From Fodinicurvata sediminis DSM 21159 (lineage in GTDB: Bacteria; Pseudomonadota; Alphaproteobacteria; Kiloniellales; DSM-21159): a stretch of DNA of 64,000 bases. Positions 56,245-61,782 of this stretch are shown piece after piece. The position numbers were made by a program, and so were the translations under genes. Under the pieces are notes generated by a model. It did not search any database, was not told the origin of the DNA, and saw only the letters and a program-made list of their open reading frames with translations. The stretch is taken from positions 372,001 through 436,000 of the forward strand of contig NZ_ATVH01000014.1 in the NCBI RefSeq assembly GCF_000420625.1. The letters are read 5' to 3'. Each line of letters opens with the position of its first letter. The stretch's first letter is position 1.

Positions 56245-57810
56245 TCAGGCCGTCATAGCCGTGGGTTCCGTTTTCTCCCGTTTCACCATCATCTTGTTCA
56301 GTGCATTGATGTAGGCACGGGCCGAGGCCACCAGGGTGTCGTAGTCCGCACCCTGGCCATTGACGGTCTTGCCGTTCTCTTCCAGGCGCACGGTCACCTC
56401 GGCCTGGGCGTCGGTGCCTCCGGTCACGGCATGAACCTGATAGAGCTGCAACTGGGCTTCATGCGGGATCAGTTCACGGATCGCGGCGAAAGTCGCATCG
56501 ACCGGCCCATTGCCCTCGGCCTTTGCCTTCTGCTTCTCGCCGCCGATCTCGACCTCCAGCTCCGCTGTCTGAGGGCCCTCGGTGCCGCACTGGATGCCCA
56601 GCGAGACGAAACGGATATGGTCGTTGTGGCGCACCACGGCATCATCGACCAGCGCAATGATATCCTCGTCGAAGATTTCCTTCTTGTGGTCGGCCAGATC
56701 CTTGAAGCGCACGAAGGCGTCCTTCAACTGATTTTCCTCCAACTCGATGCCCAATTCGGCCAGTTTCGACTTGAAGGCATGCTTGCCGGAGTGCTTGCCC
56801 ATCACCAGCGTGGAGCGGTTCAGCCCCACGGATTCCGGCGTCATGATCTCATAGGTTTGGGCATTCTTCAGCATGCCGTCCTGATGAATGCCGGATTCGT
56901 GCGCGAAGGCATTGGCCCCGACGATGGCCTTGTTCGGCTGGACCGAGAAGCCGGTGATCGTGGAAACCAGCCGCGAGGCCTTGGTGATCTTGGTGGTGTC
57001 GATGCCGGTGGAATAGGGCATCACGTCATTGCGGGTGCGCAAGGCCATGACGACCTCTTCCATGGCGCAGTTGCCCGCACGCTCGCCAATGCCATTTACG
57101 GTGCACTCGATCTGCCGCGCCCCGGCCTGCACGGCCGCCAGCGAATTGGACACGGCCAGGCCCAGGTCATTGTGACAATGCACCGACAGCACGGCCTGGT
57201 CGATGTTCGGAACACGATTCATCAACATGCGGATCATCTCCGCAAATTCCTCGGGAACAGTATAACCAACGGTATCGGGGATGTTGATGGTACGTGCCCC
57301 TGCCTTGATGGCACCCTCGACACAACGCGCCAGGAAGTCATGCTCCGTGCGCGTTCCATCCTCGGGAGACCATTCCACATTGTCGCAGAGATTGCGGGCA
57401 TAGCCGACACTCTCGACGACGGCATTGTAGACGTCCTCCGGCTCCATCTGCAGCTTGTACTTCATGTGCAACGGGCTGGTGGACAGGAAGGTGTGGATCC
57501 GCGGGCTCGCGGCCGGCTTCAGGGCTTCCCAGGCGCGATCGATATCCTTGGGCGTGGCGCGGGCCAGGCCGGCAATCGTGGAATTGCGGACCTGCTTCGA
57601 GATGGCATTGACTGCTTCGAAGTCTCCGATGGAGGCGATCGGGAAACCGGCTTCGATAACATCGACGCCCATTTCCTCCAACGCGCTGGCGACGGCCAGC
57701 TTTTCCTCCAGGTTCATGGAGCAGCCTGGCGACTGCTCGCCATCACGCAGAGTGGTGTCGAAGATGATAACGCGGTTGGTGTCTTTTTCGTCGATCTGTA
57801 CGGAACTCAT
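56245..57810 (-). CDS. leuA: 2-isopropylmalate synthase
   Basis: A 521-residue enzyme that condenses 2-oxoisovalerate with acetyl-CoA, the first step of leucine synthesis. The TIM barrel begins IFDTTLRDGEQSPGCSM; the metal ligands are in SVHCHNDLGLAVSNS. The C-terminal regulatory domain (about residues 400-510) is the leucine feedback site. Length is normal for the LeuA1 type. A leucine-rich leader peptide precedes it by 114 bases, suggesting attenuation. ilvC and ilvN nearby provide its substrate pathway. Confidence 0.96.
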   Translation of the reverse strand: MSSVQIDEKDTNRVIIFDTTLRDGEQSPGCSMNLEEKLAVASALEEMGVDVIEAGFPIASIGDFEAVNAISKQVRNSTIAGLARATPKDIDRAWEALKPAASPRIHTFLSTSPLHMKYKLQMEPEDVYNAVVESVGYARNLCDNVEWSPEDGTRTEHDFLARCVEGAIKAGARTINIPDTVGYTVPEEFAEMIRMLMNRVPNIDQAVLSVHCHNDLGLAVSNSLAAVQAGARQIECTVNGIGERAGNCAMEEVVMALRTRNDVMPYSTGIDTTKITKASRLVSTITGFSVQPNKAIVGANAFAHESGIHQDGMLKNAQTYEIMTPESVGLNRSTLVMGKHSGKHAFKSKLAELGIELEENQLKDAFVRFKDLADHKKEIFDEDIIALVDDAVVRHNDHIRFVSLGIQCGTEGPQTAELEVEIGGEKQKAKAEGNGPVDATFAAIRELIPHEAQLQLYQVHAVTGGTDAQAEVTVRLEENGKTVNGQGADYDTLVASARAYINALNKMMVKREKTEPTAMTA

Positions 57811-57889
57811 GGATATTTCCCTCTCCTTGGAATCCTTGGCTGGCGGAAATTGCGCGCCCTAGCCTCGGAAGTTTCATTTGTCAGACTAT

Positions 57890-57931
57890 CCCCTGCCCGC
57901 TTGCCGTTCTCACGGCTGTGGCGTTCAGGGG
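57890..57931 (-). promoter_or_regulatory. Stem-loop between the leader peptide and leuA
   Basis: GCCGT-GAGA-ACGGC (57916-57903) is nested inside CCCCUG (57931-57926) paired with CAGGGG (57895-57890). The outer 5' arm covers the leader's last codons and stop, so ribosome position would decide whether it forms. No T run follows, so any termination would be Rho-dependent, or control would be translational. Confidence 0.4.
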
Positions 57932-58059
57932 CTGATAAGGAGAAGGAGGAGAGCGCCGCCGGATAGGCGGAGATCGGTCAGATCGATTGCGCGCGCAGCC
58001 GCGATATCCGCGGATGCGGACTTCGGCAGTTCATTCTCTGTGCGCAGCTCTTCGGACAT
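57925..58059 (-). CDS. Probable leucine leader peptide (leuL-type) upstream of leuA
   Basis: A 44-residue open frame, [13 protein letters not shown] at its start, that ends with five consecutive leucine codons and an isoleucine (CTC CTC CTT CTC CTT ATC, residues 37-42) just before the stop, plus Leu at 27, 30 and 32. Leucine runs next to a stop codon and upstream of leuA are the classical sign of transcription attenuation. The ribosome site is weak (GGA 4 bases from the ATG), and the leader is longer than typical ones, so the case rests on codon content and position. No shorter start fits. Confidence 0.55.
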
Positions 58060-58206
58060 GTTCCAGTCTCTAACCTAAAGCTCTGGTTCATATACATAAC
58101 GCTGATTCGCCTGCGCGACAACAGGGAATCTGTACACGCGGCTGGAGCCTGCCGGCAGGACAGGATAGATTTCCGGCCAGATCGCCATCATCAGCAGGGA
58201 GCCCTC

Positions 58207-59247
<1,041 letters not shown>

Positions 59248-59294: not shown

Positions 59295-60434
59295 ATGAGT
59301 CCACTGCCGCCTTTCCACCGCCACCGGGGGGTCTTGCTCCCGGCTATTCTTCTGGCCCTGGTCCTGCTGCCGTCTTGCTCCCAGCGTGGCGGCGAGGCAC
59401 TTGCACTGCTGGACAGCTTCTCCGGAAGCCAGCGTGACGACACCCCTGCCATCAGCCGGGAGTCGGGACGGCTGGACAGCAGCCAGGGAACTTTCGAGGT
59501 TGATGTCTACACGCGCACGGACGGCCAGGAGCGTGCAAACCTCCTGCTGGTGCCCGGTGTCACGCCCCAGGGCCGAAACGACCCGAGGCTGGTGGAATTC
59601 GCCGAGTTGCTGGCCCAGGCGCAATTCAGGGTGATCGTGCCCGAGTTGACCAACCTGCGTGAACTGAAGGTCTCGGCAGAGGACGCAGACGCCCTGGGCG
59701 CGCTTCTTGAGCATCTTTCAGGATCGGCCGAAACAGAAACGCGCCCCTTGGGCCTGGTGGCCATTTCCTATGCAGCGGGACCGGCCCTGATCGCGGCCAG
59801 CCAGGCAGCGCCACAAGACAGGCCGGACTTCATGCTGGCCATCGGCGGCTATTACGATACCGAGAACGTGGTGCGCTACTTCACCACCGGCGCCTTTCGC
59901 AGACCGGATAACCAGGATTGGCAGGAAGGTCAGCCCCACCCCAAGGCGCGCTGGATGTTCCTGCAGGCCAATGCGGAACGCCTGGACAATACCGATGATG
60001 CTTCAACACTGCGCAGACTGGCAGCAACCAAGCTTTCTGACCCCTCTGCCAGTATATCCGCATTGCGCTCCAGGCTCGGCCCGGAGGGCCGGGCCGTTCT
60101 GGCGCTGCTGGAGAACGATGACCCGGACGAGGTGACGGCGCACATAGCATCGCTTCCCGAGGAACTGCGGCGCGAACTTGCCGCCCTGAACCTGGCAGGA
60201 CGCTTCCTTGACGCACTCGACTTCCCAATCCTGCTGCTGCACGGGCGCGACGATCCGGTCATTCCCTACAGCGAAAGCCTGCGCCTGGCCGAGGCCCTGC
60301 CTGATGGCAGGGCCGAGGTCACCCTGACCGAGGGCCTGATGCATGTTGAAATGAGCGACAGCCGGATTTCAGACGGCCTGCGGCTTTATGACCTGACGGT
60401 GCGCCTTCTGGAACTGCGCGACGGCGTCGAATAG
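59295..60434 (+). CDS. Alpha/beta-hydrolase-fold lipoprotein
   Basis: A 379-residue protein with a lipoprotein signal (VLLPAILLALVLLPSCSQRG, lipid Cys at about residue 28) and an alpha/beta hydrolase fold. The nucleophile position reads GLVAISYAAGPAL, a Ser in A-I-S-Y-A rather than the usual GxSxG; an acid and His are in LLLHGRDDPVIPY and EGLMHVEMSD. It may be a hydrolase anchored in a membrane or a pseudo-enzyme. I cannot name a substrate. It ends at a strong terminator. Confidence 0.7.
   Translation: MSPLPPFHRHRGVLLPAILLALVLLPSCSQRGGEALALLDSFSGSQRDDTPAISRESGRLDSSQGTFEVDVYTRTDGQERANLLLVPGVTPQGRNDPRLVEFAELLAQAQFRVIVPELTNLRELKVSAEDADALGALLEHLSGSAETETRPLGLVAISYAAGPALIAASQAAPQDRPDFMLAIGGYYDTENVVRYFTTGAFRRPDNQDWQEGQPHPKARWMFLQANAERLDNTDDASTLRRLAATKLSDPSASISALRSRLGPEGRAVLALLENDDPDEVTAHIASLPEELRRELAALNLAGRFLDALDFPILLLHGRDDPVIPYSESLRLAEALPDGRAEVTLTEGLMHVEMSDSRISDGLRLYDLTVRLLELRDGVE

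Positions 60435-60500: not shown

Positions 60501-61782
<1,282 letters not shown>

Follow-up and report, generated by a model that had tools for sequence, protein, structure and literature searches.

The stretch analysed in the present study (the window, 64,000 nucleotides of Fodinicurvata sediminis DSM 21159) carries leuA on its minus strand, preceded at a distance of 114 nt by the stop codon of a short open reading frame with a run of leucine codons (Table 1). The product of the window leuA scores above three NCBIfam equivalog cut-offs for 2-isopropylmalate synthase (NF002087, NF002086 and TIGR00973), and the ATG of the short frame is the sole in-frame ATG downstream of the previous stop. 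The 44-codon frame with five leucine codons announced in the preliminary description of this locus is thus present; that description let the frame end with the five leucine codons and an isoleucine codon, and the order of these six codons stood, whereas serine and proline codons still precede the UGA. One match each was obtained in the genome of this strain by DNA search and with the covariance model R1 (E<=0.001). Upstream of leuA on the same strand, ilvC is found at 60501-61520 (minus), and two opposite-strand genes lie between them, one zinc alcohol-dehydrogenase-like (58207-59247) and one weakly esterase-like (59295-60434), both below the NCBIfam cut-offs. Because these two genes part leuA from ilvC, leuA is probably transcribed from a promoter of its own. 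The possible promoter in Table 1 is largely retained in the congener, and it was not called by a consensus promoter scan. A promoter downstream of the leucine run, raised earlier as an argument against attenuation, was not found by the scan either, which is weak evidence as the scan called none upstream of the run.

Table 1. Coordinates of leuA, the leader and the predicted RNA helices in the window
Feature	Position	Strand	Basis or remark
Leader ORF, 44 codons + UGA (135 nt with stop)	58059-57925	minus	translation of the sequence
Five Leu codons CTC CTC CTT CTC CTT	57951-57937	minus	putative control codons; as RNA, anti-Shine-Dalgarno run
Pro codon CCC + stop UGA, at P1 5' arm	57925..57930	minus	register kept with compensating changes, 80 class sequences
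P0 5' arm (Leu codons)	57937..57947	minus	minimum free energy (MFE) fold, 11-bp helix
P0 3' arm, leuA Shine-Dalgarno region AAGGAGAGGGA	57818..57828	minus	fold and co-adaptation
P1 5' arm CCCCUG	57926..57931	minus	near-invariant in close relatives
P1 3' arm CAGGGG	57890..57895	minus	near-invariant in close relatives
P2 5' arm CGC	57921..57923	minus	
P2 3' arm GCG	57898..57900	minus	
P3 5' arm GCCGU	57912..57916	minus	fold; two-sided changes in 3/5 pairs
P3 3' arm ACGGC	57903..57907	minus	fold; two-sided changes in 3/5 pairs
leuA, 2-isopropylmalate synthase, TIGR00973 / NF002087 type, 521 aa	57810-56245	minus	
Possible promoter: TTGTCG (58121-58116), 17 nt, TATGTA (58098-58093)	58093..58121	minus	by eye, inference only

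The nested hairpin P1-P3 starts within the final codons of the leader. Its P1 5' arm includes the proline codon together with the U and G of the stop, in agreement with the outer arm over the leader end that had been noticed before. In the MFE fold of the window, the leucine codons pair with the Shine-Dalgarno (SD) region of leuA in the helix P0, which includes one G-U pair. With an empty leader the leuA SD is mostly paired (0.33 unpaired in the window, with a mean of 0.348 over 54 loci). The fold of 57955-57795 reaches -60.1 kcal/mol (z -2.72), and 6 of 200 shuffles were equally low; the fold energy of the window leader alone is therefore modest evidence, and the strong evidence is conservation. 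The lack of a T run pointed out in the preliminary description was confirmed, since no terminator-like site was detected in 57750-58300 and no U-run follows the hairpin.

All 58 genomes searched in the order of the window contained some LeuA-family match, and the leader core was present upstream of leuA in 26 of the best 30 places, which were fetched with the window among them and counted. The leader ORF of the congener departs from that of the window at 2 of 135 nt, one of these changes being silent, and the leuA-proximal spacer is visibly more diverged. The leucine run is conserved as coding sequence in the relatives, a check that had been proposed at the outset. In the alignment of the 26 cores, P1 is almost invariant and two-sided changes occur in P3 only. 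P1 thus says little on structure among near relatives, and its conservation there was dropped as structural evidence, the support being supplied by the class-wide set instead. The leader core is absent from L013, L018, L022 and L027. The first three are three genomes of one genus with upstream regions that look alike by eye, and their leuA may be under some other control. In L027 the leader body is lost and leuA opens with the leader-like codons ATGTCGAACACCGAC, and in its relative L026 the leader start ATGTCGAGCACCGAC stands at the position matching this leuA start (both by eye); L027 seems to represent a natural deletion that fused the leader start codons to leuA and would have removed the attenuator.

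Several results extend the leader to the class. First, R1 gave matches under strict filters in 45 of 387 class genomes, and leuA was downstream on the same strand in all 30 of these loci that were fetched (window and G002 included). Second, a protein search revealed the LeuA type of the window in 146 of 289 class genomes, and 140 of 147 LeuA places were used as upstream regions, leaving out the window, G002, the second copy in G158 and the partial or truncated G301, G320, G198 and G096. R1 matched in sense at E<=0.01 in 84 of these 140 regions, with no match at that threshold in the other 56. The stop was in register in 80 of the 84 positive regions (UGA 69, UAG 6, UAA 5), and the pair formed by the second stop base and the base facing it was G:C in 63, G:U in 5, A:U in 10, A:C in 1 and G:G in 1. 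Also, a last codon changed from CCC to CTC was accompanied by a change of the opposite G to A in 4 of 6 class sequences. The Fisher P values for the compensation at the stop and at the last codon, with phylogeny ignored, were 2e-8 and 9e-6. Third, a DNA pattern blind to leuA was run over the genome collection and yielded at least 120 stretches. Among the matches listed, leuA lies within 260 nt downstream in 105 of 120; of the rest, 6 stretches end within 300 nt, L290 is without leuA and L267 has the late part of leuA only, and 7 of the 120 come from a different class or phylum and appear fortuitous. Carriers named by record title, which 80 of the 120 listed matches had, include Bradyrhizobium, Methylobacterium, Microvirga, Devosia, Chelatococcus, Acetobacteraceae and Caulobacter sp. 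S45, and plasmid records add Methylobacterium bullatum and Phaeobacter inhibens. In a search of the phylum, 28 of 299 genomes were positive, all 28 from the class of the window, the 299 being counted without division by class. A chance origin of the leader was rejected, as it recurs in the same place before leuA again and again across loci. In the megaplasmid of Paracoccus denitrificans (L067), a leader read by eye as MTRMQQIIATARHAHDGARPAVNPRGLLLLTLR and ending in a stop was seen. Its run TCCTTCTT is complementary by eye to the SD AAGAAGGA, and R1 finds no match there; the leader family is thus wider than R1. Rfam release 15 gave no match at gathering score in the window, and 57750-58150 searched up to E 5 gave one lncRNA family at E 3.3 and nothing else.

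The reading frame was examined in 192 unique leaders, retained from 207 after the removal of near-identical rows. Part of this set was drawn by a pattern that fixes CTTA and CCCCTGA, which biases that part at the stop and at codons -4 and -1. The length to the farthest in-frame ATG has a median of 41 codons (IQR 35-47) in 166 of the 192, and the other 26 are without an in-frame ATG. The 44 codons of the window, regarded as unusual in the preliminary description, are therefore ordinary, and length was dropped as a sign of novelty. In the leader frame, leucine accounts for 25-46% of the codons from -7 to -13, compared with 0-17% in the other two frames, and the enrichment spans about 10 codons. 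Since a stop is preserved in the three forms UGA, UAA and UAG and leucine is enriched in the leader frame only, the frame appears to be translated. The assignment of a leucine-type leader to leuA is supported by this one-frame enrichment, by the in-frame stop kept with compensating changes and by the position before leuA.

If the leucine codons act as an anti-SD strand, run and ribosome-binding site (RBS) should be fitted to each other. Because all SDs look alike, each run was tested on its own and on swapped leuA start regions. The duplex energy of the run with its own RBS was lower than with swapped partners both in L-type leaders (CUC/CUU, n=62, z -7.9) and in R-type leaders (CGA, n=40, z -5.6), and the value for the 80 non-redundant leaders, after removal of 22 near-identical ones from 102, was z -9.7. 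The permutation z values ignore phylogeny, and controls of the same relatedness are given for this reason: the complemented run gave +0.6, the post-stop sequence -0.5, the reversed run -3.1 and the reversed RBS -2.8, and the last two indicate that the co-adaptation signal is partly compositional. These tests and the map that follows omit L129, L078 and L079, in which no start was detected, L139, whose spacing was too short, and the 4 of 84 R1-positive class regions without a stop in register. A two-dimensional map with 20 permutations per cell placed the minimum (to -8.2) at leader positions -24 to -1 and leuA positions -28 to -7. Farther upstream of leuA the map had a strong flank (to -6.8 at -40), the trend was antiparallel, and no value fell under -3.9 upstream of leader position -40. 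Co-adaptation was also seen directly upstream of the run (z -5.6), and P0 may thus extend in that direction. Swapping the 11-nt SD window alone gave a weak z of -2.2 (10 of 54 near-identical rows removed) because all SDs resemble one another. For the window, 2 of 101 foreign RBSs and 11 of 101 foreign runs paired at least as well as its own partners (-18.7). In a single case, L051, the run CUUCGAC stands opposite GUCGAAG over the SD.

Masking the run, as a stalled ribosome would, raised the openness of the SD from 0.33 to 0.62 in the window and from a mean of 0.348 to 0.453 over 54 loci (Wilcoxon P 3.5e-6; control mask 0.348). The gain exceeded 0.1 in 22 of 54 loci, compared with 4 of 54 under the control mask. 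In the other 32 loci the SD was opened by no more than 0.1, and in two (L014 and L036) it was closed by more than 0.1. In many loci, the SD pairs instead with leader sequence upstream of the run.

Herein, we propose that the element is a leucine-responsive translational attenuator of leuA, a reading reached by computation, to which we assign a probability of about 0.7. The leader, its stop and the hairpin are conserved, and the complementarity between run and RBS is co-adapted; from these we infer translation of the leader, ribosome stalling, the direction of regulation and leucine as the signal. With enough leucine, the ribosome translating the leader would clear the leucine codons, terminate at the UGA within P1 and depart; the hairpin would refold, and the free leucine codons would pair with the leuA SD as P0 and block initiation. 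When leucine or charged tRNA-Leu is short, the ribosome would stall on the leucine codons and cover the anti-SD run, and leuA would be translated. Such a scheme would explain in concrete RNA terms how leucine controls leuA in a large bacterial class.

Rho-dependent or translational control had both been considered at the outset. Under the former, a stalled or absent leader ribosome would set the access of Rho, and P0 would only keep leuA untranslated and exposed to Rho. The missing terminator-like site in the window and the 76 of 80 class sequences in which the 8 nt behind the stem contain no more than four T are compatible with this reading, but the co-adaptation of the run with the RBS indicates the initiation site of leuA itself. 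Translational control is favoured over Rho because the leucine codons pair and co-vary with the ribosome-binding site of leuA, and we consider the Rho-dependent reading unlikely.

A nascent-peptide arrest would place the stall at the end of the leader. The C-terminus L-(L/R)-L-(I/S/T)-x-P-stop would hold the ribosome at Pro-stop, a slow site for ribosomes, and leucine or the peptide, rather than hunger for leucine at its codons alone, would set the stall. Codon -4 is leucine in 192 of 192 leaders and the last codon is proline in 186 of 192, both fixed by the pattern in part of the set, and codon -5 is arginine in the R-type leaders, all of which speaks for this reading. However, the last codon is CTC (leucine) in the remaining 6 of the partly pattern-drawn 192, and the compensating change in 4 of the 6 class sequences ending in CTC means that RNA pairing accounts for the proline codon without a peptide effect. 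The leucine enrichment over about 10 codons also speaks against an arrest at the C-terminus, which appears quite unlikely.

In another reading, the RNA itself would be bound by a protein, sRNA or ligand, and the open frame would be incidental. The nucleotides are conserved beyond the need of a peptide, with CUUA (CUU in 181 of 192 at codon -4, part of the set having been drawn with CTTA fixed) and CGA in 57 of 58 of the arginine codons at -5 (part of the set likewise pattern-drawn), and protein binding was preferred by the authors for the actinobacterial LEU element in the available part of Seliverstov et al. 2005 (PMC1262725). The retention of an in-frame stop as UGA, UAA or UAG and the enrichment of leucine in one frame only make this reading very improbable. 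An attenuator of the classical transcriptional kind would work through an intrinsic terminator and an antiterminator, in the style of the enteric leu operon, where the Leu-codon leader leuL before leuA acts on transcription through an intrinsic terminator. It would share with the window the leader with control codons and the GC-rich hairpin before leuA, and it would suit the 4 of 80 class relatives whose stem is followed by at least five T within 8 nt. Intrinsic termination is mostly unavailable, however, with no terminator-like site detected in the window and no such tail in the other 76 relatives, so that the terminator was rejected and this attenuator can hardly apply.

Leader-peptide translational attenuation with occlusion of the SD is the mechanism of the erm type. 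In the same class as the window, branched-chain amino acid attenuation through a leader peptide of ilvB, a different gene, was reportedly described by Vitreschak and co-workers in 2004. The ilvB leader peptide is mentioned in the available part of the article on alphaproteobacterial RNA motifs by Corbino et al. 2005, in which a text search counted no leuA. The available part of another report assigns the cysteine genes of M. smegmatis to leader-peptide translational attenuation with SD occlusion (PMC13236596). As far as that part goes, the erm and M. smegmatis type is alike in that an upstream ORF pairs downstream and hides the SD, which a stalled ribosome frees; the predicted signal here is leucine, and the sensing codons themselves form the anti-SD strand. 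A close likeness exists with the actinobacterial LEU element, in which an upstream ORF with a leucine run precedes leuA and its leucine codons are described as forming a base stem with the SD of leuA; in the available part of Seliverstov et al. 2005, this stem lies at the base of a pseudoknot. Thus, the principle that control codons serve as anti-SD before leuA is already published for actinobacteria (2005), and this idea becomes testable by compensating mutations. Several differences separate the two forms. First, the alphaproteobacterial leader is long compared with the 15 codons of the leaderless LeuL1 of Streptomyces, as given in the accessible portion of the source. Second, the stop codon is built into the 5' side of the alphaproteobacterial hairpin (CCCC-UGA), and a CGA-CUU-A form exists. 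Third, the window LeuA is of the TIGR00973 type, whereas the actinobacterial proteins were recognized by their 58-61% identity with a protein of the TIGR00970 type. Four actinobacterial leuA loci (L367-L370) have leaders with LLL(S/G)xR, and a hairpin that starts directly after the leucine run was read there by eye from the sequence alone. R1 responded weakly to L367 (18.0 bits, E 0.1) and L369 (14.7 bits, E 0.47) and not to L368 and L370 up to E 1. The literature searched, which comprised papers outside subscription and some texts in part, held no description of an alphaproteobacterial leuA element, and the available part of PMC10272879 does not describe one. What the present study adds to this principle is the alphaproteobacterial element, which is marked by a stop inside the hairpin stem, a long leader and the CGA form and has no match in Rfam 15.

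The CGA-CUU-A form raises the question of its retention at the nucleotide level before both kinds of leuA. CGACTTA occurs upstream of 56 of 140 leuA of the window's type. For the LeuA2 type (TIGR00970), 30 of 36 alphaproteobacterial places were fetched (L337-L366), and CGACTTA was found within 350 nt upstream of 21 of these 30 leuA, at 96-304 nt from the LeuA match. Mononucleotide shuffles gave an expectation of 0.5, and the count on the opposite strand was 0, both figures with L366 misplaced. The motif codes for Arg-Leu inside an open frame in all 20 of these loci in which it was read, and several of the frames end in LRLIGG.. before the stop. Pairing with the SD is not obviously the explanation for the retention of CGACTTA. 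It is conceivable, if doubtful, that one old leuA regulator extends across phyla, covering both alphaproteobacterial LeuA subfamilies, betaproteobacterial leuA and the actinobacterial LEU element. Such a regulator would consist of a translated leader in which leucine codons, or CGA-CUU-A with one or two leucine codons, form the anti-SD beside a hairpin just after the run, and where CGA-CUU-A is present, leucine would be sensed at one slow CGA-CUU site instead of a leucine run. Leucine-rich leader ORFs before leuA were also seen in Sinorhizobium meliloti pSymB (L371, ending in LLLLGLIRGCRVR and the stop), Rhizobium leguminosarum (L372, ending in LLLLGLTRGCRVL and the stop), Sphingomonas parapaucimobilis (L373, ending in LLLRSLRLIRP and the stop) and Cupriavidus metallidurans (L374, ending in LLLSLPIGCRA and the stop).
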